From Candidatus Thorarchaeota archaeon (GTDB lineage: Archaea; Asgardarchaeota; Thorarchaeia; Thorarchaeales; Thorarchaeaceae), in assembly GCA_016840825.1 (NCBI GenBank), contig JAEORN010000201.1:1-20560 (forward strand): a stretch of 20,560 nucleotides of DNA, written 5' to 3'. The notes beneath the pieces are model-generated. The model was not told where the DNA came from. It ran no database searches and saw nothing but the letters and a program-made list of their open reading frames with translations. The position numbers were made by a program, and so were the translations under genes. The first letter of the stretch is position 1; the number at the start of each line of letters is the position of its first letter. Below, one piece after another: positions 2,570-20,560 of this stretch.

Positions 2570-3277
2570 ATGGCATCTGAAGATATCCCGGAAATTGTAA
2601 GGAACTTTGCCCCTATATTGCATTTCCATCCAGAGGAAGGAACATATTGCTGCTTCCCTTCTGACGCAGAGGAGATCTACTCTAAGTACAAGGATAACTG
2701 GGATTCTTTCAAGAAGCAGTTAACACCATCGATACTCGATCAGAATACACCATGCTACTATGAGATGTGGACCAGCGATGGGATGACACAGATCAGGTAT
2801 TGGTTCTGGTATAATTACAATAGATTCCCTCGAGCGCCGCTGAAACTGGGGGAGCACTTAGGGGATTGGGAGCATGTAGAGGTGAGAATCTATTCCGATG
2901 ACAGGGTAATATGGCTTCTCTCTAACCATCTTGAGTCAAGGTTAGCTTCCATTCCCAACGGAATAACGCTTCCTGAGTTCAAGTCAGTAGCACCAGTTCT
3001 TGATGCTATGCACATTCATGCGTGGGTCGCGTTGGGTTCTCATTCACTTTATCCCGCTCATGACAGCAAACCATATTGCATCGCGGGGATATTATGTGAC
3101 AAGATTTCAGAGAAGGGGAAAATCTGGAGAACAGAATCTAACCTCATCAATCTCTCCCAGACTAATTTCTTTGAGTTCCAAGGACGCTGGGGAGATAAAT
3201 ACGCACCAAGGAGTCCAACGAACGATTACAATAACCGATGGAGAAATGCTCCAAATAGATTGCCGATTCATCGTTAA
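2570..3277 (+). CDS. Vps62-like protein of unknown function
   Basis: A 235-residue protein resembling the Vps62 family, named after a yeast vacuolar sorting protein and also found in plants and bacteria. Visible hallmarks are APILHFHPEE (14-23), the aromatic YWFWYNYN strand (77-84), GDWEHVEV (98-105) and VALGSHSLYP (153-162). The GDWEH block recalls the GHRHDWE motif of NPP1-like proteins, where acidic and His residues bind a metal. There is no signal peptide or membrane segment, so it should be cytosolic. The ATG lies 6 bp after the mannosidase stop, which suggests one operon and perhaps translational coupling. The biochemical role of this family is not established, and the link to glycan breakdown is only contextual. 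The C-terminal 60 residues contain a second hydrophilic stretch ending in basic residues that I cannot place. Confidence 0.7.
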   Translation: MASEDIPEIVRNFAPILHFHPEEGTYCCFPSDAEEIYSKYKDNWDSFKKQLTPSILDQNTPCYYEMWTSDGMTQIRYWFWYNYNRFPRAPLKLGEHLGDWEHVEVRIYSDDRVIWLLSNHLESRLASIPNGITLPEFKSVAPVLDAMHIHAWVALGSHSLYPAHDSKPYCIAGILCDKISEKGKIWRTESNLINLSQTNFFEFQGRWGDKYAPRSPTNDYNNRWRNAPNRLPIHR

Positions 3278-3306: not shown

Positions 3307-5574
3307 TTACCTCCTCCTGTAGAGAAATGCCACTACAACGATAATCACAGCAAGAGACCCGATTGTAATTGACAAGGAGATTATTTGCATCGTGGGGTCT
3401 ATCACATAGATCATAACTTGGCTTGACACCTCGTTTCCGCTAGTGTCGCTAACGATAAGTGTGTAATTATAGGTTCCAACTGATAGACCATCTATACTCA
3501 CACTGATAGCTCCTCCATTCCATTGCGATTCATAAATTGCTACATCATTCACCATGAAAACATATGATGCAGGATTTCGCTCGTAAATCTCCCAGACAAG
3601 GTTATTCCCTGTTTCGCCAATCGAGATAGTAATGCTTTCAGGAGTGCTCAGAAACTCAGGGGCAATGGTATCTTGGACAATAACAAGAATCTCCAAAATT
3701 GAACTGTGTTCATATGGATCATGGGCGGTCAGGAGTATTGGATACTCTCCAAGAGCAAGTAATGTTGTATTCCTTAGAACACCTTCACCATCCACATCAA
3801 ATAGTGTATTGTTTACAGACACTCCAGAGATACCTGATGGATCATTAATTTCCAATGTAATGGAAACTGGATCTCCAGATTCAATTCTAAATATGGAGGC
3901 TGAAGATGAAAGAACTGGTGGGAGTGTGTCATTGACTATTATCGTAAATTGCGTGCTACTTTGAATCTCATAGATGGTCTCTAGCGTTAATTCGATAGGA
4001 TATGTACCTATTGCGAGAGAGGAGCTATTTGTTAGAATTGTACCATTGAAGGAAAAGTGGACTTCGTCGTTCAATTCCCAGCTTGTGATAGGTGCATCTG
4101 AAGATATGTTGAGCCTCAGTTCCAATGATGCTCCAAATTCGAGGAAATACTCTGGTTCAGCTGAGATAGGTAGTATCTTTGGGGAGAACATTAATGGATA
4201 TAGGTCAACAACCCCTGCACCACCAGGAAGTGAGAAGGGTGTATCTCCGATACCATCCGAATTGCTGTCTTCCCCTTCATATTGAGAATAGAAGTTATGA
4301 TTGAATGAATTATCAGAAACATATACAATTGCATCATCCTCAGCTCCGATGAATGTGTTCCAAGATGCCACAACTCCCGTACCTGATACTTTCAAGGCTC
4401 GATAAGGAGACTCTATGTCATTGCGTGTCAGTGTAGCATTATTAATAGGCCACAAAGTGACACCATCTAAACAATCATGGACCATACAACCAGAAATAGT
4501 GATGTTCTCACATGTATCGATGTCCATTCCATCCATTTGCATGGAAGTGATAGAGGAATCTTCTATTGTGATATTGGCACATCTGAGTAAGGATATTCCC
4601 CTAGTCGAGCCGTTGAGTGAAACATCATGTATTGACACATTATAGCATTCTAGTAAGAGAATCTCTCCGGCCTCTTGATTGATTTCGAGGGAATCCTCGT
4701 ATTGATAATACAAACTGGGTTTGTCGTTCACATAGTTATTCTCAATTTGCAGTTGCATGAATCCATGCTGCATTGCTATGCCGCAAGAATACATCCAATT
4801 ATTAACAACTGTTTGATTCGCAGCAGATTCGAACCAGATTCCTCTAGACCCCCCAAATATTCGATTGTTCTCAATTGTATTGTTCTGATTCAAGGAATTG
4901 AAATTGACTATACCACCCCAGAGGATTATGCCTGCTTGCCAGTAATCCATAATCGTGTTGTTAGAGATTGTATTGTTATTAGACTCATCAAGCCACATTC
5001 CATCTGAGCTAGCAGAGATAATATTATCCTCAATCACATTGTAGTCAGATGTTTCGAGGTAGGCTCCAACAACGCAACCGAATGTATTTCCTTGAATGAT
5101 AATTGAAGAACAAGATCGTGTATAGACACCGACCGTGGCATTAGTTATCGAGGATTCTGTAATCTTTCCATTTGTTACATTGTACAAGTAGATGCCGGCA
5201 AAAGGATGATTTCCTCCAATCTCGCAATTTGCTATTTCAAAATAGGAACGTGTATTGTTTATTTCAATACATCTCTCATCTACAGTATCTTGATAGATAG
5301 AATAATCCTTAATCTTATAGGGAAGCTCTTCAGTGCCACTTCCTTCAAATCCCAACTGAGTGAAATTGTCATCATGTGTAATGACGATTGGTGAATGAGT
5401 TGTCAGGTCTGATGTGGTTCTCACCTCAGAAAGCAGAACATTTGCTTGTTGATTATGACGTGTTTCTAGCGTTGGAAGACCCAATAGGAGAAACAGCAAT
5501 GTAAACACAAATAGGACCTTGATTGCTCTTCGTTTTCTGAAATCTGACAAGTGCTTTACTATGACCTGTATCAC
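3307..5574 (-). CDS. Surface-anchored right-handed beta-helix (NosD-like) protein with Ig-like domains
   Basis: A 755-residue exported protein. A basic N-terminus (FRKRR) is followed by a hydrophobic signal/anchor segment at 19-34. Residues about 95-430 hold repeated short strands of the parallel beta-helix type with turns such as NNTIENN and NNTISNNTI, as in carbohydrate-binding/hydrolase (CASH) and NosD proteins. The typical NosD end motif, an acidic turn ending DGIGDTPF, is at 432-447. Three Ig-like or cadherin-like domains follow at about 470-548, 549-633 and 634-725, each ending in a strand such as FTIIVND or LVIVQD. A membrane helix at 731-751 ends in the basic tail YRRR. Many N-x-S/T sequons suggest heavy glycosylation. 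The start codon is GTG (5572-5574). No catalytic residues can be named; it may bind or cleave extracellular polysaccharide or serve as an S-layer-like adhesin. It lies downstream of two other surface genes on the same strand. Confidence 0.85.
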   Translation of the reverse strand: MIQVIVKHLSDFRKRRAIKVLFVFTLLFLLLGLPTLETRHNQQANVLLSEVRTTSDLTTHSPIVITHDDNFTQLGFEGSGTEELPYKIKDYSIYQDTVDERCIEINNTRSYFEIANCEIGGNHPFAGIYLYNVTNGKITESSITNATVGVYTRSCSSIIIQGNTFGCVVGAYLETSDYNVIEDNIISASSDGMWLDESNNNTISNNTIMDYWQAGIILWGGIVNFNSLNQNNTIENNRIFGGSRGIWFESAANQTVVNNWMYSCGIAMQHGFMQLQIENNYVNDKPSLYYQYEDSLEINQEAGEILLLECYNVSIHDVSLNGSTRGISLLRCANITIEDSSITSMQMDGMDIDTCENITISGCMVHDCLDGVTLWPINNATLTRNDIESPYRALKVSGTGVVASWNTFIGAEDDAIVYVSDNSFNHNFYSQYEGEDSNSDGIGDTPFSLPGGAGVVDLYPLMFSPKILPISAEPEYFLEFGASLELRLNISSDAPITSWELNDEVHFSFNGTILTNSSSLAIGTYPIELTLETIYEIQSSTQFTIIVNDTLPPVLSSSASIFRIESGDPVSITLEINDPSGISGVSVNNTLFDVDGEGVLRNTTLLALGEYPILLTAHDPYEHSSILEILVIVQDTIAPEFLSTPESITISIGETGNNLVWEIYERNPASYVFMVNDVAIYESQWNGGAISVSIDGLSVGTYNYTLIVSDTSGNEVSSQVMIYVIDPTMQIISLSITIGSLAVIIVVVAFLYRRR

Positions 5575-5716: not shown

Positions 5717-6595
5717 CTATTCGGCTCCTCTTTTTCTAAGAATGAGTATACCAATCGCAAGTGTAGCGACAGCAGCAACAGAGAACAACATAATTACTTG
5801 AAGGAGAATCATAGGATCGTCTGAAGAGCCAGATGGAATCGAAGGTGTTTCTGTATCTGAATCAGAGGTAGCTAGAACTTGGACTTCCTTGATGCCCCAT
5901 GTCCCATATAGATCCTCTGCTTCAATTCGATAACTAACTGGTCTTTGTTCAAGACTTGCTTGCCCATTTATTTCCTTATTACTGGATGGTTCTTCTACAT
6001 TGTTGGTGAGATTCTCCCAATTCGTTCCGTCAATTGTCCAGAAGATTACGATCGTAGAAATGCCACTGTCATCAGTAATTGTGTAATCAATATCAAAACG
6101 ACCATCAGCCATCTCCTCGTGATTACACTCTATTTCAGGAGCATCAAGTTCCGGAGCAACAACTACCTTGATGATATGTTCCGCATAATTGATGGCTTCA
6201 TCATGTGCCTTGAATCGAATAAAATATGTATAAGCTTCAGACGTATCGATATCGAATGTAATAGATTGTTCCGAGTACCAAAGATATGTTTTCATGGTAA
6301 GCCACCAGGATGAAATTTCAGGTATCTTCACGTCAATAAAATAGCCTCCATAGCTACTGACATCATCCCTCACAGCCCAAGTCAGTGTTATTGTTCCTGA
6401 ATCTTCAAGCACTGTCATATTCTCAGGATGAAGATAGATTTCGGGAGGCGTCGTATCTTCCTGCGAAGTCGTGAACCCAGTATGATGAGGATCATAGGTT
6501 GAATTCATGACCTGAGGTGCTAGAAGAAGAACGAATGAAACAACAAATATTGTAAGAACGAGATGTCTTTCTTTCAATATACTCACCACTCTCAT
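5717..6595 (-). CDS. Secreted membrane-anchored Ig-like protein, function unknown
   Basis: A 292-residue protein with the same layout as its neighbours: a signal segment (12-29), an extracellular part, a C-terminal membrane helix (262-286) and a short basic tail (RKRGAE). The extracellular part appears to hold two beta-sandwich (Ig/fibronectin-like) domains at about 48-147 and 150-243; the second begins DAPEIECNHE and contains the turn TDDSGIS, as in archaeal surface Ig-like repeats. A Ser/Asp/Pro-rich linker (244-260) precedes the anchor. No enzyme motif is visible. It lies between the beta-helix gene and the caspase/TSP3 gene, all transcribed leftwards, but with gaps of 142 and 198 bp, so each could have its own promoter. 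Likely role: adhesion or an accessory of the surface layer. That is inference from architecture only. Confidence 0.75.
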   Translation of the reverse strand: MRVVSILKERHLVLTIFVVSFVLLLAPQVMNSTYDPHHTGFTTSQEDTTPPEIYLHPENMTVLEDSGTITLTWAVRDDVSSYGGYFIDVKIPEISSWWLTMKTYLWYSEQSITFDIDTSEAYTYFIRFKAHDEAINYAEHIIKVVVAPELDAPEIECNHEEMADGRFDIDYTITDDSGISTIVIFWTIDGTNWENLTNNVEEPSSNKEINGQASLEQRPVSYRIEAEDLYGTWGIKEVQVLATSDSDTETPSIPSGSSDDPMILLQVIMLFSVAAVATLAIGILILRKRGAE

Positions 6596-6793: not shown

Positions 6794-9700
6794 TCAAGAC
6801 TTCCGTTTCTTCATAACGACAAGCAAGAGGACCACAACGATAACCCCTGCGGCAGAACCGATAATGATCAGCAATATTAGACTAGGTCCAGGTGGACCGA
6901 GAATCTCAGTGCCTTGAATCACGACATGATGCTCGCTATGCATATACGAGAAGTAGATGAAGGTCGCTGTGTCATTGCTGACAACATCAAAGGTGATCGG
7001 CATCTCATCGAGAAGAACCTCCCACTCCTCCTCTGGTGCATAGAGCAGGGCTCTTGGTATTGTGATGTTGCAGAAGCTCATTGTTCCTTCAGGACCACTC
7101 AGATCGAACTCGATGCGACCATTCTCTGAGTCGAACATCAGGTTATCGATCTGGGACGCAGTTCGGAAGTTCACATTAAACCCGTAGGTCGGAACTACCC
7201 ATCTGAAGATCTGCGGGAAGTTATTCTTGTTCAAAGGATCGGAACCAAAGTTGACTTCCCAGCCATCATTGTAACCATCACCATCTGTATCCTCTAGAGC
7301 GCAAAGGGTGTGGTTGATCAGATGGAAGTAGTTGCGAGCAGTCGTGTTCTCATCGCCTATGCTTCCGTAGGTATATCCTGGGATGATCATGGTGAGCTCG
7401 AGATAGTCTGAGAGACCATCCGAGTCATAGTCAGTCATCATACCATCCGGGAACATATCATTATCTTGATCACTGTTGAACATGTCAGTACCCAACGGAT
7501 ACCAACTCAATGATGAGTTCTGGTAAGCGTCGACCTCGAAACCGTCATAGATGCCATCGTCATCTGAATCATAGTCCAGGATATTGATGACCCCATCATT
7601 GTCATAGTCGCCGAGAGGGCCATGTTCCGGGTTACTACTAGCACTCATGCGATCGTTACAGATGAGGACTTCATCAAAGTCGTTGATACCATCCGCATCC
7701 GTATCGTTGCTCAAGGGGTCCAGAGAGACTCGCTCAAGAACCATAAAGCCCTCGTATGAGTAGTAGACGGCAAGCTCTTCGTAGTCCGAGAGACCGTCCC
7801 CATCCGAATCTGGAAGAGTTGGGTCAGTGCCGCTCAAGATCTCATAGCTGTCATTCAGACCATCTTCATCTGTATCGAATAGCGTTGCATTGGTGTAGCG
7901 TTCATTCTCAGGAAGGGTCGTATTCGCATTGACGACTAGTCCTGCTTCAAGGTCATCCAACTCAAATGCCTGAGTCTTCACAGAGCAGGGGACGAATAGC
8001 TCGGTCCAATCGTCGAGTCCGTCCATGTCAGTGTCAGGCATGAGCATATCAGTACCGTGCTCTAGCTCGACGAGGTCCGTGACTCCATCACCATCATAGT
8101 CCAGATAGTGCCAGATGTCAGGAACGTTATTCCAATCATCCGAGAACCTGTTCATCATGAAGTCGATCTCTCCGAAATCCAGCCACCCATCCGCGTCCGT
8201 ATCATTCGTAAGCGGTGAGAGAACGATGTCCTTCTCAAGACCATCGATCAATCCGTCAAAATCCGTATCCGGGTTCATGGGATGAGTCTGGAATCGTGCT
8301 CGATAGGGGTCAGGTGCGTTGTAGAGTTGCAGAAGTATGTACTGGCCAGCCTCCTCTATTACTGGCTCCTCGATGACATAGGCTCCTGGAGCGACCTTCC
8401 TGTTCACCGCCCAGTTCCAGCCGTAGTATTCTTCCCCATCGGTCAAACCATCGTCATCGCTATCCGGATCATCAGGCTCCGTGAAGTAGGATACGTCACC
8501 TTGATACAGGATGTAGAGATGTTGCTCTGCGACCTCGACATCATCTGTAAGCCCGTCGTTGTCTGTATCCTGCCGCAACGGGTCTATCCCGTACTGGTGA
8601 ACTTCGACGCCGTCCAGAAGACCGTCACCATCTGTATCCGGTACAAGAGGATAGCTGCCTATCTCGCCCTCTTCGCCATCCAATAATAGATCGTCATCAG
8701 TATCATTATCGAGAGGATCTGTCCCGATCAAAAGCTCGAATCCATCCAGAAGGCCGTCGTCATCGACATCAGGGTCATCGAGATAATAGAGCGCAGCGAT
8801 GGTCTCATTGGAGATACCACGTGTGAGGTTGAAGTAATTTACCTCATCTCCGTCTCGAATTCCATCGTCATCATTGTCTGGGTCTGTGCAATTCGCATGG
8901 AAGAAGAACAAGTCCCGAGTGTTCTCCAATCCATCGCCATCAGAATCTTGAGCGACAGGTAATGTGCCAGCAGTAAATTCTGCAACATCTGACGAGCCAT
9001 CTCCATCCGTATCGATTGACAAGGGATTTGTAGGAGTGGGATTCGGTGGTACACAGTCATCCAATCCGAAGGGCCATTGTGTCCAATAGTTACCATTCAC
9101 TTCTCCATAGTCTGTGAAATCTCCATAGAACCCTCCGTTGATTGCGAGGTTGTGCTCTGTTGTGTTGATGAAATTATCATCATCCAAGTCAAAATCGCCA
9201 TCTGTATCGATGTCGATGGGAGAGGTCAGGTAAAGATACTCTTCGCCGTCCAAAAGTCCATCTCCATCTACATCATCATCGAGTATATCGAGAACTGGCC
9301 ACGGACGACTGTACACATTCTGATACCACTCATATTCAGTGTGATCCCATAGTCCATCAGAATCAGAGTCACGTTTGCGAGGGTCGGGATGTTCTCCTTC
9401 TAGGTCAGGCCCAGCAAAGGACCACTCCTCCAGATCAGTGAATCCATCATGGTCTGTATCAGTGATGGATGGATTTGTCTTGATGTATTCTGACCAATAG
9501 GGGCTGTAGGTTCCTTTAAGCTCCCATTTGTCATTTAGTCCATCATTATCACTATCGTCATCAAGAATGCATGGCAGTCCATCCTTATCATAGTCCGCGA
9601 GAGGGTCAAGTCCTGCTGCATAGAAGAGAGCTATCTCTTCATAATCTAGCAGTCCATCAGAGTCAGAGTCATTCACAAATGGATCTGTGAAGTACATCAG

Positions 9701-11524
9701 CACCTCGTTCCCATCAGAGAGTAAGTCATTGTCTGTATCCGCACAGGAAGAGTTGAGTCCCATAGATTGCTCAAGTTCGTCACTTAGACCATCGCCATCA
9801 AGGTCTAATTTGGCATGATCATTTGTTGGAGGGTTACTGCTACCCTCAGACTGGATACTCACGAAGGGTATCTCATCTTGCCATTCTTTGGTGACATCAA
9901 ACTTGAAGATCCAGAACAATGAAGCATAGAACTTGAAGAATAGATAATAGAATAGTCCAACGGTGAAGGAATCACCTTCATGACCAAATGAAGCCTTGGC
10001 GAAGATTCCGGTCTTAGCTCGGAGCTCAGCGCCAAGAGTGATGAAGTCCAAAGGAAGGTCTATTCCAATTGCGTCTTTGATATATGATGCAGGTGAAGGT
10101 AAACTAATCGAGATATCAAGACCAAATCCTACTTTCAAGCCTACATCCTGTTGAGATGCCTCAGTAGTTGCATTGTAGCTCATTCCGAGTACTAGTCCCA
10201 TGTAGTTTACCAGATTCACCTTCATGTTGAGAAGGTCCATTATTGTTGTCACGGTCTTGCCAGTCCCAGGAATCAAATAGTCAAGGAACGTCGCAAGAGG
10301 GATTCCAAGTTGAAAACCAAGCTCAATAGAGAAGGATCCTCCCATGAACTGGAATGGATCCTCGTCAATCGCAGGGTTTGCATCAGCCATTTGCTCGATG
10401 AAATTACCAACGCGCAATGTTGCACTCAATTTTGGGGTCAGTTCAATGGATACATCATACCCTGCTGCTTTGAGAATCTGTTTTAGTCCTAACACCTCTG
10501 CTAGGTCTAATTTTCCATCCTTAGCTTGAATCGTGAAGACAAGGTCAACATATTCGGGCATATACCAAGGACCACTGCCTATACGAGGATCAAGGTCGAA
10601 CTCTAATGGTATATCAAATGGGAACTCACCGGTGTTCGAGTCCCCACTTCCCATGTCCTCCATCTTCATTGAACCGCTATCAGTTGACCCTCCATTGATC
10701 TTGTCCTGATCGAAATTTACATGGGTAGAGTTGGAAGAAACCCAGTCATTATTGAGAAGCTGTCCTAAGAGAATAATTGCCTTGAAGACATCGACTATCC
10801 AACCCCAAGGACCTCGTGAGTCTGTTTCACTGGACCCGTAATCGATATAGAATCCGTCCAAGGTTTCTTGAGGTTCAAATGCTCTTTCTATGATAGACTG
10901 CAGGTGGCTCAGGAGATACCCTGCTGCAATCTCAAATATTGGTTGTGCCAATACTTTCAGACCGGATTGTTTTGATGCATCTAGAATCTCATAGATTGTA
11001 CACAGAACACCAAGTGTAGCAACCTCTGTATCTACTGCATCCGCAAGACCATGGACATCGCATTCATCACCAAGCAGAGATTCAAGTGTGCCTGAATGAC
11101 ACACATCAAAGATATGATGCTCCACTGAAGATCGTTTTACAACATCTCCAAGCATTGACCATGACATACTATTGGTTCCGATGAGCATCCCTTCCTCAGT
11201 TCCATGGAATACATAGATGTTCATCCAAGAACCTCGCATATGAACAGAAAGATCACTGCTTGACCGAAGTGGAGTCAGTTTGATAAGGAGATTAGCATGC
11301 GATAATTCTTCATATAGTGCCGCGGCTGTTGAGATGCAAATACTGTCATCTGAATCATAGATGATGCTTACTTTTAGTTTATCAGGCGAATGAGAATAAC
11401 TCAAGGGCGTGACTTCGTATTCGGTATTCTGATATTCAATCCCACTGCTCACAAAAATCAGAGAAGGATTGAATATTAGAGATACCAGTAATATGCAGGC
11501 GAATACCTGTTTCCTAGAAATCAT
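6794..11524 (-). CDS. Giant surface protein: caspase/gingipain-like domain, TSP3 calcium repeats, C-terminal membrane anchor
   Basis: A 1576-residue exported protein. The signal segment is at 7-27. Residues about 50-180 look like a clan CD (caspase-fold) cysteine peptidase: a strand KVSIIYDSDD, then NIYVFHGTEEG with candidate catalytic His107, then HHIFDVCHSG with candidate nucleophile Cys142, which closely resembles the D-x-C-H-S-G site of metacaspases. Residues about 230-570 form an unrecognised domain. From about 573 to 1450 there are about 28 copies of the acidic D-x-D-x-D-G motif typical of thrombospondin type-3 and dockerin-like calcium repeats, many followed by L-x-D-x-x-E. A C-terminal domain precedes a membrane helix (about 1549-1571) and the tail MKKRKS. 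It should be tethered outside the cell with a calcium-stiffened stalk. The ATG at 11524 has GGGGAGAT about 13 nt upstream. Peptidase activity is inferred from motifs only; a non-catalytic caspase-fold domain is possible. Confidence 0.85.
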   Translation of the reverse strand: MISRKQVFACILLVSLIFNPSLIFVSSGIEYQNTEYEVTPLSYSHSPDKLKVSIIYDSDDSICISTAAALYEELSHANLLIKLTPLRSSSDLSVHMRGSWMNIYVFHGTEEGMLIGTNSMSWSMLGDVVKRSSVEHHIFDVCHSGTLESLLGDECDVHGLADAVDTEVATLGVLCTIYEILDASKQSGLKVLAQPIFEIAAGYLLSHLQSIIERAFEPQETLDGFYIDYGSSETDSRGPWGWIVDVFKAIILLGQLLNNDWVSSNSTHVNFDQDKINGGSTDSGSMKMEDMGSGDSNTGEFPFDIPLEFDLDPRIGSGPWYMPEYVDLVFTIQAKDGKLDLAEVLGLKQILKAAGYDVSIELTPKLSATLRVGNFIEQMADANPAIDEDPFQFMGGSFSIELGFQLGIPLATFLDYLIPGTGKTVTTIMDLLNMKVNLVNYMGLVLGMSYNATTEASQQDVGLKVGFGLDISISLPSPASYIKDAIGIDLPLDFITLGAELRAKTGIFAKASFGHEGDSFTVGLFYYLFFKFYASLFWIFKFDVTKEWQDEIPFVSIQSEGSSNPPTNDHAKLDLDGDGLSDELEQSMGLNSSCADTDNDLLSDGNEVLMYFTDPFVNDSDSDGLLDYEEIALFYAAGLDPLADYDKDGLPCILDDDSDNDGLNDKWELKGTYSPYWSEYIKTNPSITDTDHDGFTDLEEWSFAGPDLEGEHPDPRKRDSDSDGLWDHTEYEWYQNVYSRPWPVLDILDDDVDGDGLLDGEEYLYLTSPIDIDTDGDFDLDDDNFINTTEHNLAINGGFYGDFTDYGEVNGNYWTQWPFGLDDCVPPNPTPTNPLSIDTDGDGSSDVAEFTAGTLPVAQDSDGDGLENTRDLFFFHANCTDPDNDDDGIRDGDEVNYFNLTRGISNETIAALYYLDDPDVDDDGLLDGFELLIGTDPLDNDTDDDLLLDGEEGEIGSYPLVPDTDGDGLLDGVEVHQYGIDPLRQDTDNDGLTDDVEVAEQHLYILYQGDVSYFTEPDDPDSDDDGLTDGEEYYGWNWAVNRKVAPGAYVIEEPVIEEAGQYILLQLYNAPDPYRARFQTHPMNPDTDFDGLIDGLEKDIVLSPLTNDTDADGWLDFGEIDFMMNRFSDDWNNVPDIWHYLDYDGDGVTDLVELEHGTDMLMPDTDMDGLDDWTELFVPCSVKTQAFELDDLEAGLVVNANTTLPENERYTNATLFDTDEDGLNDSYEILSGTDPTLPDSDGDGLSDYEELAVYYSYEGFMVLERVSLDPLSNDTDADGINDFDEVLICNDRMSASSNPEHGPLGDYDNDGVINILDYDSDDDGIYDGFEVDAYQNSSLSWYPLGTDMFNSDQDNDMFPDGMMTDYDSDGLSDYLELTMIIPGYTYGSIGDENTTARNYFHLINHTLCALEDTDGDGYNDGWEVNFGSDPLNKNNFPQIFRWVVPTYGFNVNFRTASQIDNLMFDSENGRIEFDLSGPEGTMSFCNITIPRALLYAPEEEWEVLLDEMPITFDVVSNDTATFIYFSYMHSEHHVVIQGTEILGPPGPSLILLIIIGSAAGVIVVVLLLVVMKKRKS
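7256..9807 (-). repeat. Array of about 28 TSP3-type calcium-binding repeats (protein level)
   Basis: Inside the giant surface protein, acidic motifs such as DTDGDGLLDG, DSDNDGLND and DTDADGWLD recur every 25-60 residues. At DNA level they show as recurring minus-strand complements of 'catcatcctgtatc'-like and 'ccatctgtatc'-like stretches, but the units have diverged and are not an exact tandem DNA repeat. Each D-x-D-x-D-G loop should bind one calcium ion. Spacers between loops vary and several contain aromatic inserts of 20-40 residues. I counted by eye, so the number may be off by two or three. Confidence 0.85.
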
Positions 11525-11662
11525 GTTACTACTATCTCCCCAGATAGAATCCTAAGTGCCTGCGTTACCACTCTTTTGTATTTAACCGTTAAGGGTTACC
11601 TTTTCTTTTACCGAAAAGGTAATGAGCATCAGCTCCTATTAGCTCAGTTTGGTGGGTATTCC
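11525..11662. promoter_or_regulatory. Divergent promoter region with shared TATA-like element and dyad
   Basis: This 138-bp space separates the giant surface gene (leftward) from the LRR gene (rightward). GTATTTAA at 11578-11585 can act as a TATA-like element in both directions (TTAAATAC on the minus strand), giving expected start sites near 11553 leftward and near 11605-11610 rightward. A perfect 10-bp inverted repeat lies over the expected rightward start site, and GTTACC/TTAACC-like half-sites recur at about 11565, 11582 and 11595. Positions of the transcription starts are inferred from the usual archaeal spacing. Confidence 0.45.
11596..11622. promoter_or_regulatory. Perfect 10-bp inverted repeat, candidate operator
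   Basis: Left arm TTACCTTTTC (11596-11605) and right arm GAAAAGGTAA (11613-11622) are exact reverse complements with a 7-nt spacer. The dyad sits between the TATA-like element and the proposed GTG start of the LRR gene. It may be a repressor or activator site, or a hairpin in the LRR leader RNA. Confidence 0.5.
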
Positions 11663-13285
11663 GTGGGCGTTCTACTGATTTCTTATGGCTATGATGGAAG
11701 GACAAAGGGTGTATCAATAAGAGAGAAAGAGCAGCTTACGGAACTAGATTATGAATGGTACTCAATCAAGTACTTGAAAAGGTTCGAAGAACTTCTCGAT
11801 ATCAATCCACTATCTGATGAAGAGCTTATCAGCACATTTCCTACACCTCTATATGTCCTTGAGGATGATATAGGAGCAGTCGATCTCTCTGTTCTATCAC
11901 ATATTCAGGATTACCTAGTATTATCAATTGAATGTATTAGTAATGAGATTGATCTACGAGGTCTTCTAACCTGCAGGATACTTCAAGGATTTAGACTGAC
12001 AGGATATAATATCGAAGAAGTTGATTTGGCACCCTTTGATTCATTGGATCTCTTGCGACATGTTGTCATTAACTACACCAAAACTACTGAGCTTGATTGC
12101 ACACCTCTTCAAAACCTCAGAGAACTACATTTACTGAACCTTCAGAGCAACAGAATCAATAATCTCGTTTTTGATAACTATGAGGATAGTATGCACTCCC
12201 TTTATCCTAAATGGACGCAATTGACCGATCTTGACCTTTCATATAATGAATTAGAGCATTTAGATTTGCATCATTTTCGAGAGAGCAAACAATTAGAATC
12301 ACTAAGTCTCAAAGGAAATAGATTAGGAGGTGTTGACCTTACACCTCTTTCTGGTTTTTCCAATCTCCGAGCAGTGGATTTGTCCAGTAATCAATTGACA
12401 GAGGTGGATTTGTATCCCTTAGAAGATTCACCATTGAAAGGTTTGGACCTTAGTTACAATAAACTCTACAAATTGAACCTATTCCCTTTGTGGAAGAAAA
12501 GCACTCTACAAGGACTCAATTTGCAGATGAATCAGCTGCAGAATCTTGATCTTCGTCCTCTTACCGATTCGAAGAATCTAGAAGCTCTGATTATTTCCCA
12601 AAATCAAATAACTGAACTGGACATCACACCACTCATCGCATCCCTGAAGCTAGATTGGTATGATTTTGACGATTTCACATCTTTTCTGGTCAGAGAGGAT
12701 ACATTACAGGAGTCAAAGAGCAAACTACCCAGCCTATTCCGATACTTAGTTCGATTGCGTAAATTGAAAATAATCGCTATGAAAGAAAGTGGAGCTGCTC
12801 CTGTAACCAATCAAACTCTTGATGAAATAAGAAAGGAATTGGCTGACATTTCAAAGAGTATGCAATCATTACATCAAAACACCTTAGAGATAATGAAGGC
12901 CTCTGGAGAAAGTCAAGAGAATCAACAAGAAATGATCATTTTTCTTGAAAGGTTAGAAAAGCAAGTTGACAAAAATGGTGAGTTTGCAAAAGTGCTCATC
13001 ATGAATATGGAACTAATTTATAATTCGCTAATTGATGGAAACCGATCGCTTGAAGAGTCTCTACATATGCTACAGAATAGGATTGATGATATAGGTAAGA
13101 AGCTGGGCATGGACCGTGACCTTCTTGATAGGATACAGGATGCTATTACTGAATCAATGGCAAAGAAAGTTCAGACGACCATATTCACTAGGATTAAAGA
13201 ACAAATGACAAGACCTGAAATCGCAGCAATCCTTTTGACAACTATTAGAAGAGTGTTGAACCTATTAGGACTCCCCATTCCCTAA
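11663..13285 (+). CDS. Leucine-rich repeat protein with C-terminal coiled coil
   Basis: I start the gene at GTG 11663 (540 residues) because GGTGG lies 7 nt upstream (11651-11655) and the earlier frame from TTG 11576 overlaps the promoter dyad and does not read like protein. Residues about 116-326 hold around nine leucine-rich repeats of the form LxxLDLSxNxLxxLDLxPL, for example LTDLDLSYNELEHLDL and LRAVDLSSNQLTEVDL; such solenoids bind other proteins. A linker with a basic stretch (RYLVRLRKLK) leads to a heptad-rich coiled coil at about 381-501. The end holds an amphipathic helix and the tail LLGLPIP. There is no signal peptide, so it is likely cytosolic, perhaps membrane-associated through the last helix. 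The function is unknown; it may be a scaffold. It is divergent from the giant surface gene and may share its control region. Confidence 0.8.
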   Translation: MGVLLISYGYDGRTKGVSIREKEQLTELDYEWYSIKYLKRFEELLDINPLSDEELISTFPTPLYVLEDDIGAVDLSVLSHIQDYLVLSIECISNEIDLRGLLTCRILQGFRLTGYNIEEVDLAPFDSLDLLRHVVINYTKTTELDCTPLQNLRELHLLNLQSNRINNLVFDNYEDSMHSLYPKWTQLTDLDLSYNELEHLDLHHFRESKQLESLSLKGNRLGGVDLTPLSGFSNLRAVDLSSNQLTEVDLYPLEDSPLKGLDLSYNKLYKLNLFPLWKKSTLQGLNLQMNQLQNLDLRPLTDSKNLEALIISQNQITELDITPLIASLKLDWYDFDDFTSFLVREDTLQESKSKLPSLFRYLVRLRKLKIIAMKESGAAPVTNQTLDEIRKELADISKSMQSLHQNTLEIMKASGESQENQQEMIIFLERLEKQVDKNGEFAKVLIMNMELIYNSLIDGNRSLEESLHMLQNRIDDIGKKLGMDRDLLDRIQDAITESMAKKVQTTIFTRIKEQMTRPEIAAILLTTIRRVLNLLGLPIP

Positions 13286-16864: not shown

Positions 16865-18541
16865 TCATATGCGTACAGGAAACTCCAGAGTGAATGATGC
16901 ACCTCCGTTGCGTCCCTTATTCGGTGAATCACTTACTGTAATAGTGCCATTGTACCTTCTGACCAATACGTTCGCTAATGGTAATCCAACACCTCCACTT
17001 GGATTTCGGGAGTGCCAGTCAAACAGTCCGCTCAAATCCTGTGCGGGCATCCTAAAGTCATCACAAGCTATCTCCACAAATACAGAGGACGGTCTATCAT
17101 TTTCTTGACCTACACGCACGACCAACCTAATTTTAGAAGAGCCAACATTATCAACAATGAAACGAAAGACACTGAAGAAGGCATACTTGAGCATATCCTC
17201 TGCTTGAATGACGTAATTATGCGGAGGGAAATGTGCATTGAATGTGATATTGTAGCGAGGATACAGCTCGTGAATGTCAAGCATTGCGTCCTCTAGATAT
17301 TTGATCAGATCTGAGTCATTCAGTACAGGAGATGTCTCATTTGCGCGGACCATGACCTTTGTTTCCTTCAGGAGGATCATAGATCTGTCAATCTCATCAT
17401 TGACTATGGTCAATCCATCAAGTACGTTCATATTTCGCTTAAGCTGGTGGAATGCTGTTTCGACACCAAGGAGCATTCCTTGTATGATATTTGCCATATC
17501 ATGGCTTAACAGATCCAGATAGAATGACGCCTTCTCTCTTTCTCCTTTGTATCTTGTAAGAATCTCTGAGAGCTGTTCGCTTTCCAAGTCCTCCAGTGCT
17601 CTGCTTACATCTGATATAGCAATCACGACGGATATTGGGTTTCCATCTGTACCTAGCTCGTGGGGTAGTATATCAACCTTGAAGCGCTGAGTGAATCCTA
17701 GAGGGTCTATTCTAACGTTTGGGATCGTCAATCCATTTCCGGAGAGGAAGACTTTCTCTATCGAATCAAGCAGGTATGCTACTATCGCGAGAGCAAGCTT
17801 ATGCATAGTCGATGGCTCAGACCTCAGATTTGAATCAACGATTCGACCCTGACTGTCAACGATAATAAGATGTATGTCCAATCGCTCATAGAGTCCAGCA
17901 TATGTCACTGTCCCAATGATATATCCTCCCAGACCAATGAGAATCACAGAGATCGCCTCAAAGGCGATTCCCAACTCAATCTGCCTGAGAACTCCCGCTA
18001 ATATTCCAGTACCCAGAACCATACAGAAGTATCCAAGAAAGATCACCCTGTACCCTCGTTCATACTCTGGTTTCAAGGTCCTGTAAGGGTGTTTTCGGAA
18101 GTGATTGAAGTAGTAGATCGGCAGACCCGCGAAGAGGGGAACAAGGAATACCACTGCTGCGCGTCGGGCTATCTCTGGATCGATGGTAAGATATAACGTA
18201 GAGATAACTGGCAAGCTAGTTGAGAATATCAGAACGATGATCCTTGAAGCCCAAGCATTCGGCTTTACGACTCTTGCCTTGGCACTTACATGGAGAAAAT
18301 ATACTCCCAGACTCAAAAGCGGTATCCCGTAGAAGTAATCCGTTGCCCTGAGAACAGGGACTAATGGATCATTCAGAGGCAGGTTCAACCAAGTATACAG
18401 GTTGAGATTGTGCATGATCATTGCGAAGGCAAAGCTTCCAAAGACCAAGTCATTCCGATTCTTATGTGTCCAAGCTTGCTCTATATAGATGAGTGTGACT
18501 ATGAGCGAGATGAATGCAGAGAAGATGGCAATCTCATACAA
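16865..18541 (-). CDS. 7-TM sensor histidine kinase with degenerate ATP-binding site
   Basis: A 558-residue membrane protein. About seven hydrophobic helices fill residues 4-214, followed by a PAS-like segment (about 218-315, starting IHLIIVDSQGRIVDSN), an H-box helix with His347 in DLLSHDMANIIQ, and a HATPase-like C-terminus (440-558). Aligned with the kinase at 18819-19919, the N-box Asn is replaced by Phe461 and the G1 box DxGxG by C-x-D-x-R (493-497), whereas the G2 part GGVGLPLANVLVRR is kept. So it probably cannot bind Mg-ATP normally, though the phospho-acceptor His is present. It may be phosphorylated by another kinase or act as a sensor pseudokinase. The start codon is TTG (18539-18541), preceded by GGAGGGT about 10 nt upstream, and it lies inside a hairpin described separately. 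Confidence 0.82.
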   Translation of the reverse strand: MYEIAIFSAFISLIVTLIYIEQAWTHKNRNDLVFGSFAFAMIMHNLNLYTWLNLPLNDPLVPVLRATDYFYGIPLLSLGVYFLHVSAKARVVKPNAWASRIIVLIFSTSLPVISTLYLTIDPEIARRAAVVFLVPLFAGLPIYYFNHFRKHPYRTLKPEYERGYRVIFLGYFCMVLGTGILAGVLRQIELGIAFEAISVILIGLGGYIIGTVTYAGLYERLDIHLIIVDSQGRIVDSNLRSEPSTMHKLALAIVAYLLDSIEKVFLSGNGLTIPNVRIDPLGFTQRFKVDILPHELGTDGNPISVVIAISDVSRALEDLESEQLSEILTRYKGEREKASFYLDLLSHDMANIIQGMLLGVETAFHQLKRNMNVLDGLTIVNDEIDRSMILLKETKVMVRANETSPVLNDSDLIKYLEDAMLDIHELYPRYNITFNAHFPPHNYVIQAEDMLKYAFFSVFRFIVDNVGSSKIRLVVRVGQENDRPSSVFVEIACDDFRMPAQDLSGLFDWHSRNPSGGVGLPLANVLVRRYNGTITVSDSPNKGRNGGASFTLEFPVRI

Positions 18542-18583
18542 TTCTGTTGATACCCTCCACTATATCATCTAGCAACAGAATTG
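18539..18583 (-). promoter_or_regulatory. 11-bp hairpin covering start codon of degenerate kinase gene
   Basis: In the leftward mRNA, CAATTCTGTTG pairs perfectly with CAACAGAATTG, leaving a 23-nt loop that holds GGAGGGT. The last three bases of the second arm are the UUG start codon. This could hide the start codon while showing the ribosome-binding site, or act as a DNA operator. Confidence 0.5.
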
Positions 18584-18746
18584 GCGTGTCCTGTATATCG
18601 ATTACAAGTTTCAGTGTATAATCTTTTTCTAGATATATCCTTCAAAACGCAATTTTTTCCACAATGCATAGGAAGAATTGCTAACACTACCATCTATTTT
18701 TCTTACAAATCGAATTAATATTCTAACGACCTGCACAAAATAGATT

Positions 18747-18760
18747 CATTAATCATTAAT
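18747..18760. repeat. Tandem CATTAAT duplicate upstream of PAS kinase gene
   Basis: Two perfect copies of CATTAAT sit side by side in the AT-rich 18600-18760 segment, about 60 bp before the kinase start. They may contain its TATA-like element or a protein site. The rest of the 18584-18818 gap holds only AT-rich sequence, with no other recognisable signal. Confidence 0.3.
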
Positions 18761-18818
18761 TCGAGATGAGGTTGAATGGGCTGCTAACGACTAGAATCTT
18801 AGGACTCTGGTGAATAGC

Positions 18819-19919
18819 GTGGATAGGACACAACTACTTTGGACGTTAGTTGAGGGTACAAACGAGCTTATTTTCAGCGTACCAAAAGACGGTACCTTTG
18901 AATATGTGAACACGTCATTCCTTAGAAAGCTAAAGTATTCTGAAGATGACTACGAAGAGCTTGCACTGACAGACATTGCCTTTCCTGGCTCACTGAATAA
19001 GATGAGGGACGTCCTGAAGGAAGCATTCTCAGGGAAAGAGGTCTTTGATCAGGAACTGACATTCACTAGCTCTGATGGTAAGATGGTAGAAGTGTCAGGG
19101 AACCTCATTCCGAGATATGAGGGCGGATTAGTAGTTGCAGTGGTAGGTATCTTCAAGGATATAACCGACAAGAAGAGAATTGAACAGGAAGTCAAAGATA
19201 CAAGATCAAAGGCAGATTTCCTTATGGATATCATGATTCATGATATCACCAACATCAATCAGGAGATTCTATCCACCTTAGAGCTTGCCAGCTTTGTACC
19301 TGCCATTCCGGCTGATTTAAAGACGCTCCTCCATGAAGGCATGGATGAGCTTGAGAGGTCATCGACCATCATCTCCAATGTCAAGAAGCTATCGATCCTA
19401 GAGTCCCAGAGGCTTCTTGTCGAGGAGAGGGATCTCGGTGATGCGATCTACGGAGCTTCAATTCGTGCAAGAGCGGCTCATCCTGAGAAGAAGCTCAAAC
19501 TGGTCAATAATGTGCAGCTTCAATCCTATTTCATCAAGTCGAATATCTTCCTATCAGATGTCTTCTATGAGCTATTCAGCAACTCAATGAAGTTCGATGA
19601 GAGGAAGGAGGTGGTCATTGAGGTCTCTGCAAGTCCCATCAAGATGACACCATTCCTCCGAGTGGAGATCTCTGATTATGGGAGAGGAATATCAGATGAT
19701 GAGAAGGAGAGTATCTTTGACAAGGAGATTCACAGGAAAGATAGTATCAAAGGACTAGGTCTTGGATTGACTCTTGTCAAGAGGATCCTTGAGTCATTGG
19801 GCGGGTACATCAGGGTCGAAGATAGGATTGAGAACGAACATGAGAAAGGAGCGAAGTTTGTACTCCTCCTTAGATATTCAGAGAAGCAAGTGAACCCGAC
19901 AGGAGATACATCAACATGA
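18819..19919 (+). CDS. PAS-domain histidine kinase
   Basis: A soluble two-component kinase. I prefer GTG 18819 (366 residues) to GTG 18810, because GGTGA (18809-18813) is 5 nt before it. A PAS domain occupies about residues 5-115 (TNELIFSVPKDGTFEYVN to GIFKDITDKK). The H-box MIHDITNINQEIL carries the phospho-acceptor His141. The ATP-binding domain has an intact N-box (Asn255 in ELFSNSMKF), G1 DYGRG (286-290) and G2 GLGLGL (312-317). There is no membrane segment, so it senses a cytosolic signal, perhaps redox or a ligand bound by PAS. It overlaps the following receiver gene by ATGA, which points to translational coupling and to that receiver as its phosphate target. Confidence 0.92.
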   Translation: MDRTQLLWTLVEGTNELIFSVPKDGTFEYVNTSFLRKLKYSEDDYEELALTDIAFPGSLNKMRDVLKEAFSGKEVFDQELTFTSSDGKMVEVSGNLIPRYEGGLVVAVVGIFKDITDKKRIEQEVKDTRSKADFLMDIMIHDITNINQEILSTLELASFVPAIPADLKTLLHEGMDELERSSTIISNVKKLSILESQRLLVEERDLGDAIYGASIRARAAHPEKKLKLVNNVQLQSYFIKSNIFLSDVFYELFSNSMKFDERKEVVIEVSASPIKMTPFLRVEISDYGRGISDDEKESIFDKEIHRKDSIKGLGLGLTLVKRILESLGGYIRVEDRIENEHEKGAKFVLLLRYSEKQVNPTGDTST

Positions 19920-20275
19920 CAAAGGTGCTAATAGTAGACGATGACAGTTTCCTTCATACAGTACTGGAAAGAATCCTGAGTATTGGTGGGCATGAGGTAG
20001 TTGCTCATGCTTATGATGGTGCAGATGCTATTGAGAAATACGTACAGTTAGATCAAAAACCAGACATCATACTCATGGACCATAGGATGCCAGTGATGAA
20101 TGGCGCTGATGCAACAACAGAATTGCATAGAATCAATCCAAAGGCGAAGATCATCTTCATCAGTGCAGATGAATCAGTGAGAAACATAGCAATAGGCGCA
20201 GGCGCGTTGGATTTCCTGACAAAACCAATAAGAAGCAAGCATCTATTCGCGATTCTCGAGAAATATGCTACATAA
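19916..20275 (+). CDS. Single-domain response regulator (CheY-like receiver)
   Basis: A 119-residue receiver domain with no output domain. The acidic pair (Asp8/Asp9 in VLIVDDD), phospho-acceptor Asp55 (LMDHRMP), the Ser83 switch (FISAD) and Lys103 (LTKP) are all present, so it should be phosphorylated normally. It overlaps the stop of the PAS kinase by 4 bp (ATGA). With no DNA-binding or enzyme domain, it must act by protein contact, or pass the phosphate on in a relay. Its stop is only 7 bp from that of the convergent kinase fragment. Confidence 0.93.
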   Translation: MTKVLIVDDDSFLHTVLERILSIGGHEVVAHAYDGADAIEKYVQLDQKPDIILMDHRMPVMNGADATTELHRINPKAKIIFISADESVRNIAIGAGALDFLTKPIRSKHLFAILEKYAT

Positions 20276-20282
20276 CATGAGG

Positions 20283-20560
20283 TCATAGCATCTTTCGAAT
20301 TGGGAGCGAGATCAGAAAACAGGCACCTTTTGCAGGAGATGTATCGTTTAGATCAATAGAACCATCTATAATCTTGAGAACTTCTCGGCTCAAATAAAGG
20401 CCATAACCCCCACCCGTCGTAGATACACCTCTTTCGAACAGGGATTCTTTCACTGATTCTGCGATACCTGGACCATCATCTTGAATCTCGATATGCAGAC
20501 GATTGTCCACGATCCTTCCTGTAATCTCGATCTTGGCCATTGGTCCAGCATATTTCGCAG
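20283..20560 (-). CDS. Histidine kinase, C-terminal ATP-binding part (5' end beyond window)
   Basis: The frame is open to the right edge; the ATG at 20540 is internal because upstream codons in frame read AKYAGP, the end of an N-box (NAxKYA type). Visible are G1 DDGPGI and G2 GGGYGLYLSREVLKIIDGSI, both intact, followed by the closing strand FLISLPI. The H-box and any sensor domain lie outside. It is convergent with the receiver gene, and may share that receiver with the PAS kinase. Confidence 0.88.
   Translation of the reverse strand, partial: AKYAGPMAKIEITGRIVDNRLHIEIQDDGPGIAESVKESLFERGVSTTGGGYGLYLSREVLKIIDGSIDLNDTSPAKGACFLISLPIRKML

Follow-up and report, generated by a model that had tools for sequence, protein, structure and literature searches.

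Clan CD cysteine peptidases (e.g., the caspases of family C14 and the gingipains of family C25) contain a six-stranded central sheet in all structures, according to a published account (PMC4357240), which also defines a minimal core of four strands, helices 1 to 3, and a small sheet between strand 3 and helix 3. The gingipain RgpB is described there as a 10-stranded sheet with a C-terminal immunoglobulin-type domain; its dyad is printed as His221/Cys244, yet Gly210 and Gly212 are given as neighbors. Another paper names genes of families C11, C25, and C13 in Thermoprofundales (PMC6461988). A 2019 survey (PMC6426788) describes pseudo-orthocaspases, in which Tyr and Ser replace the dyad and which seem to be absent in Archaea. 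Here, we describe a predicted surface protein encoded by contig JAEORN010000201.1 of a Candidatus Thorarchaeota archaeon (assembly GCA_016840825.1; the whole stretch of 20,560 nucleotides is referred to as the window). We consider it probable, though far from assured, that this protein is an exported, membrane-held cysteine hydrolase of caspase fold, most likely a peptidase, which is raised on a stalk of TSP3 calcium motifs together with a beta domain.

An earlier note, made from the window sequence, had proposed a caspase/gingipain-like domain on a surface protein with a calcium-repeat stalk, and its author knew of no characterized protein with this order of domains. Our literature search agrees with the latter statement, in that none of the open-access papers listed describes a relative, as judged by titles and abstract openings.

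RESULTS

The gene and its parts are as follows.

6794..11524, minus strand: whole open reading frame (ORF) of the surface protein, 1576 aa, ATG start
11441..11524, minus strand: signal segment, residues 1 to 28 (hydropathy and sequence)
10880..11383, minus strand: predicted caspase-haemoglobinase-like (p20-type) domain, residues 48 to 215 (AlphaFold2, structure comparison, and profile comparison)
11204..11206, minus strand: codon of His107, candidate catalytic His (VFHG), after strand 3
11159..11161, minus strand: Trp122, probably structural (present in 66 of 66 family rows, including dyad-less ones)
11099..11101, minus strand: codon of Cys142, candidate nucleophile (DVCHSG), after strand 4
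11030..11032, minus strand: Asp165, probably structural (present in the same 66 of 66 rows)
10625..10879, minus strand: linker, residues 216 to 300, with a conserved RGPWGW and a helix (model confidence, <60)
9851..10609, minus strand: predicted amphipathic antiparallel beta domain, residues 306 to 558 (AlphaFold2; mean predicted local distance difference test score, 69.8)
7229..9805, minus strand: TSP3 calcium-motif stalk, residues 574 to 1432 (Pfam PF18884; 28 strict motifs)
6905..7207, minus strand: membrane-proximal region, residues ~1440 to 1540, no Pfam match there
6806..6892, minus strand: C-terminal membrane helix, residues 1545 to 1573, followed by a KKRKS tail (hydropathy and sequence)

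The translation bears out the layout proposed earlier: the candidate His and Cys are exactly 35 residues apart in their VFHG and DVCHSG motifs, a signal-like hydrophobic stretch (about residues 5 to 30 by hydropathy) lies ahead of the N-terminal domain, and a C-terminal hydrophobic helix precedes KKRKS. The TSP3 count depends on the pattern used; the strict form D-x-D-x-D-x-x-x-D gives 28, as had been estimated, and a looser one gives 32 motifs, which partly overlap. Nothing was called by Pfam on the window protein except TSP3 (PF18884, TSP3_bac; E value, 3.8e-22; 78.2 bits versus a cut-off of 25). The note had overlooked the beta domain, which follows the caspase-like domain and comes before the stalk.

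A protein search in which 7992 candidates were scored gave at least 20 homologs (965 to 1799 aa) at an E value of 0.001 or better, and the 20 listed cover 89 to 100% of query residues 45 to 560. Where an organism is given, it is called Thorarchaeota, Lokiarchaeota, or Hodarchaeales; none of the homologs carries a name that indicates a function. The 20 homologs show the same order of parts over the stretch that each sequence covers. P0004 is longer at its N terminus, where it has methyltransferase domains, three sequences (P0011, P0013, and P0014) end ahead of the membrane helix, P0021 has no signal, and P0002 and P0021 have no start. Together with the window protein, the homologs form an alignment of 21 rows, in which P0002 is a copy that is nearly identical but truncated at its start, and each protein carries 13 to 28 strict TSP3 motifs.

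In this alignment, the N-terminal domain varies most among the four parts measured (mean entropy, 1.83; 10 invariant columns of 186), the values for the others being 1.5 for the linker (8 of 70), 1.07 for the TSP3 part (234 of 857), and 0.88 for the beta domain (61 of 261). Its invariant columns are Y104, H107, G108, G112, W122, C142, S144, L147, D165, and P218. Conservation of the His and Cys in homologs, on which the proposal of a caspase-like domain depends, is thus complete (21 of 21 rows for both). A variable domain with an invariant His107 and Cys142 is what one would expect if an active site were kept in an exported enzyme that otherwise changes fast. A chance motif was also considered and was rejected in view of the invariance in the 21 rows and in distant short relatives as well as by the profile matches described below.

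The AlphaFold2 model of the N-terminal domain (model numbering) contains a strand at 25 to 31, a helix at 35 to 48, a strand at 54 to 60, a helix at 67 to 70, a strand at 75 to 79, a hairpin (86 to 89 and 92 to 95), a helix at 96 to 105, and a strand at 110 to 114. The order of these predicted elements matches that of the clan CD minimal core. The candidate dyad would lie at strand ends, with the His at model position 81 after strand 75 to 79 and the Cys at position 116 after strand 110 to 114. A caspase-type core is therefore predicted by the model and supported by structure comparison, as had been anticipated; the complete sandwich is not, since strands 5 and 6 are absent and the confident part of the model holds only helices and a two-residue bridge after the Cys.

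We compared the dyad-bearing family with sets of C25, C14, CHAT, and C11 proteins from genomes of the phylum by hhalign, using response-regulator receivers as a control of similar topology, consensus-led profiles, and 60 column-shuffled versions of the family. Of 100 loci, 83 were used (C25, 20/20; C14, 16/20; CHAT, 16/20; C11, 15/20; receiver, 16/20). The scores were 30.6 for C14, 28.6 for C25, 15.9 for CHAT, 14.0 for C11, and 10.6 for receivers, and the observed score was reached by 0, 0, 2, 14, and 17 shuffles, respectively. The corresponding hhalign probabilities for C14 and C25 were modest (46% and 16%). Both alignments place His on His and Cys on Cys over ~50 to 57 columns. In a first version of the test, the family scored 33.5 against C14 and 32.6 against C25, whereas the scores between established families were 29.0 (C14-C25), 28.8 (C11-C14), 22.7 (C11-C25), 38.9 (C14-CHAT), and 75.2 (C25-CHAT), and the highest score of any set against the receivers was 18.4. 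The similarity of the family to C14 and C25 is thus roughly on a par with that seen among the more distantly related clan CD families in this comparison. The caspase/gingipain-like label is supported as profile similarity to both families; gingipain membership is not supported over C14, the two scores being close and strands 5 and 6 being absent from the model.

Other profile libraries gave little. The window protein matches none of PF01364 (C25), PF00656 (C14), and PF12770 (CHAT), and PF00656 and PF12770 are likewise unmatched in 10 members of A4, one of which matches DUF6642 (PF20347; E value, 3.3e-4). A short relative, L066, has a weak match to PF01364 over the corresponding region (E value, 0.0057; 16.4 bits versus a cut-off of 23). 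PADLOC run with four proteins gave one weak match only, to L078 (E value, 0.055), and PHROGs with two proteins also gave a single weak match (0.055).

A 10-row profile of the N-terminal domain was searched against 227 genomes of the phylum of L001 (taken without completeness values) and matched 78 of them at an E value of 0.01; the matches were inspected in part. Up to 13 matches occur in one genome (G182; 11 in G040), suggesting lineage expansions. The beta domain was found in 4 of the 227 genomes at an E value of 1e-5, one of these being a 50-residue match. A single-sequence scan of the genome collection found no relative, and a scan with the beta-domain alignment found one locus, L001. With the beta domain alone as query and ~8000 candidates scored, the matches listed include at least two short proteins, one of 151 aa and one of 247 aa (the second on a 902-base contig).

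Family rows were taken from the loci of the best ~30 profile matches, 20 longer relatives, and 20 short relatives, giving 66 rows after removal of duplicates. His and Cys are both present in 43 rows and both missing in 21, 2 rows have the His only, and none has the Cys only. These rows were retrieved with a dyad-containing profile and so the conservation of the motif is partly due to selection; the dyad-less matches show that this selection is not absolute. Trp122 and Asp165 look structural, being kept in every row. Among the dyad-bearing rows, the residue adjacent to the candidate catalytic His, a Gly in clan CD and in all 21 rows of the first alignment (Gly108), is Gly in 40 of 43 and Ser in 3, and C-x-S follows strand 4 in 40 of 43. 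The 20 short relatives (L059 to L078; 298 to 578 aa) all keep H, W, C, and D. In 17 of them, which are distant (13 to 21% identity to the first row), no columns are free of variation except H, G, W, C, and D, which correspond to H107, G112, W122, C142, and D165. Seventeen short and two medium relatives used as queries, with 7996 candidates scored, yielded at least 35 proteins; every name given is "hypothetical protein," and the named organisms are Thorarchaeota or Promethearchaeota. Three family members (L039, L040, and L041) have 28 to 33 strict TSP3 motifs, as does the window protein. In L044 and L017 (G083:C3 near 1041049-1041552), the dyad-bearing domain lies inside a 13746-residue open frame.

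When the H and C columns are removed before tree building, all 23 dyad-deficient rows group in one clade (support, 100/99), within which the two His-only rows stand together. The single clade indicates that the dyad was lost once, and for the same reason we do not count the fact that His and Cys disappear together as independent proof that they pair, since one clade is one event. In the dyad-less rows, the His position holds N, D, Q, P, G, E, or S-free variants and the Cys position holds G, A, or P; the members are presumed to be pseudo-enzymes. The loci of this clade are L003, L018, L019, L021 to L026, L028 to L033, L036, L038, L047, L048, L051, L052, and L054 to L058. Several have frames of ~2100 to 2300 aa with the same domain and with Trp and Asp kept. 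The dyad-less frame L051:1346-5671 contains, in addition, an N-acetylmuramoyl-L-alanine amidase domain (PF01520; E value, 5.7e-38), which we would not expect in an archaeon, and a weak alpha/beta-hydrolase-like stretch.

Several results weigh against an active caspase-fold enzyme. Besides the missing strands 5 and 6, the Foldseek ranking favors flavodoxin-type folds (procaspase-3 is at rank 41), and among the families listed by the structure comparison, PurE and receiver domains reach 9.4, close to legumain and caspases. Sequence searches of the PDB returned nothing in one case and four matches in another (E values, 0.98 to 1.7), none of them credible. No Pfam or NCBIfam family covers the N-terminal domain of the window protein. 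The CHAT and C11 scores are not clearly above the shuffles; the long-protein subset alone scored 26.4 against C25 and 26.1 against C14 (probabilities, 5% and 10%), and the dyad-deficient subset, at 16.7 and 12.3, did no better than the controls. Judging by the low scores of both subsets, it is the His-to-Cys segment that carries the similarity to C14 and C25. The C-2 position, which is acidic in metacaspases, is variable. Finally, 23 of the 66 relatives are without an intact dyad and hence the fold also serves without it.

The structural results among these raise the question of another three-layer alpha/beta fold (i.e., of flavodoxin, PurE, or receiver type) with a fortuitous His/Cys resemblance. 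This explanation is highly improbable in our view: SAVED-CHAT (PDB 8tl0) lies ~3 Z units above the PurE and receiver rows, and the C14 and C25 profiles match with their dyads aligned and with scores that none of the 60 shuffles reached, whereas the score of the receiver control was reached by 17 of 60. We do not file the domain in C14, C25, or CHAT, because the model does not show the six-stranded sheet and none of the family profiles recognizes the domain. It resembles clan CD in its predicted core fold and candidate dyad and may work likewise.

The loss of the dyad bears on a different alternative, namely, that the caspase-like fold is a binding module that forms the tip of an adhesin or receptor, with His and Cys kept for folding or binding. 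The persistence of a clade without the intact dyad, with Trp122 and Asp165 in all 23 rows, speaks for such a role, as does the lack in the model of the half with strands 5 and 6, which helps form the substrate pocket. However, His and Cys occur in all 43 rows outside the clade (the rows being grouped by having the dyad), and among the gapless columns of these rows, only W122 and D165 are equally fixed. Moreover, the two residues are at the catalytic positions of the predicted fold and align with the C14 and C25 pair. We therefore regard a pure binding function as unlikely, though it deserves serious consideration.

An operon partner was sought and rejected, as six related loci (L179 to L184; 15 to 20 kb each) share no clear common neighbor with the window. 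The only neighbor similarity is weak and is to the beta-helix surface protein (L180, 24% over 613 aa; L182, 31% over 121 aa), the remaining matches in these loci being frames that overlap the gene itself. In the window, the gene is followed on the same strand by an ORF of beta-helix/NosD type (3307-5574; PF13229 and PF05048) and a 292-aa ORF with no Pfam family (5717-6595); judged by eye, both begin with a signal-like stretch and have a hydrophobic segment at the C terminus. A leucine-rich-repeat ORF (11576-13285) is divergent, at 51 bases from the start of the stalked-protein gene as listed. The ORF at 2570-3277 has a weak Vps62 match below the cut-off (PF06101; E value, 4.4e-4), and 16865-20560 holds histidine-kinase-like and response-regulator-like ORFs, as judged by eye from the translations.

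The genomic context also concerns the idea that the protein is a caspase-fold enzyme but not a protease. It might, for example, attach surface proteins to an anchor, acting as a transamidase or sorting enzyme in the manner of eukaryotic GPI8 (family C13). An exported, membrane-anchored caspase-fold protein, as predicted here for an Asgard archaeon, would fit this idea, and seven short relatives measured by a hydropathy threshold have 2 to 7 hydrophobic segments, some of which may fall inside the domain. Against it, no neighbor gene is clearly conserved in the six related loci, and a 1576-aa stalked protein would be odd for a sorting enzyme; we judge it quite improbable.

DISCUSSION

An exported caspase-fold hydrolase, which we prefer, would operate as follows. 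The signal would direct export and the C-terminal helix would anchor the protein in the membrane, while the calcium-bound TSP3 rod would raise the beta domain, with the caspase-like domain at the outer end. There, a compact p20-type cysteine hydrolase, most likely a peptidase, would use His107 and Cys142 for limited cleavage of proteins on the cell surface or close to it. As to the substrate, it might, at a guess, even be its own or a sister chain. We think that limited surface proteolysis is the likeliest role. External calcium would be needed for the rod and perhaps for activity. Calcium activates C11 peptidases, metacaspases, and separase and is present in active gingipain, according to the clan CD account (PMC4357240); by analogy, external calcium could govern both rod and enzyme.

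A more elaborate scheme, to which we give little credence, combines the protease, on the calcium rod, with an amphipathic beta domain that would be able to enter or strip membranes. A cut in its own linker or in a sister chain would free or switch the beta domain when the tip touches another cell, making the protein a single-gene counterpart of a caspase-gasdermin pair in the archaea nearest to eukaryotes.

If the domain is active, Asgard archaea would possess a family of exported caspase-fold enzymes that has no name so far, and the lineage nearest to eukaryotes would have elaborated caspase-type proteases outside the cell. A four-strand core may then suffice, and the same fold would have given rise to a dyad-less branch of surface proteins. 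With one domain and two residues in question, the family is a compact test case.

Among known systems, the TSP3-repeat surface proteins CglD and MtsD are like the window protein in having a calcium-repeat stalk (E values of their models, 7.1e-46 and 2.5e-9). They differ in that the matches are far under the cut-offs (156.5 versus 400 bits and 35.8 versus 800 bits), with the best stretches in the repeats. For the CHAT proteases, 2 of 60 shuffles reach the profile score obtained with CHAT domains of the phylum, and PF12770 is unmatched; CHAT proteins of the SAVED-CHAT kind act inside cells. The pseudo-orthocaspases offer a parallel to the dyad-deficient clade, since in both cases one branch with a p20-type fold has lost the dyad, although the replacement residues are others and the family is different.

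The two peptidase families with the best profile scores are both present in the phylum as separate genes, in 55 of 99 genomes for C25 (clear members) and in 24 of 99 for C14. The gingipains (PF01364) are similar in having His-Gly and then Cys at close spacing, which is 35 in the window protein and 33 in RgpB if the His of the latter is residue 211. They are dissimilar in that the window model is without strands after the Cys and the protein is below the Pfam cut-off. Compared with C14 (caspases, metacaspases, and orthocaspases; PF00656), the window protein is set apart by its predicted export and stalk, its variable C-2 position, and the lack of a Pfam match, but the two dyads are aligned and both have C-x-S after strand 4.
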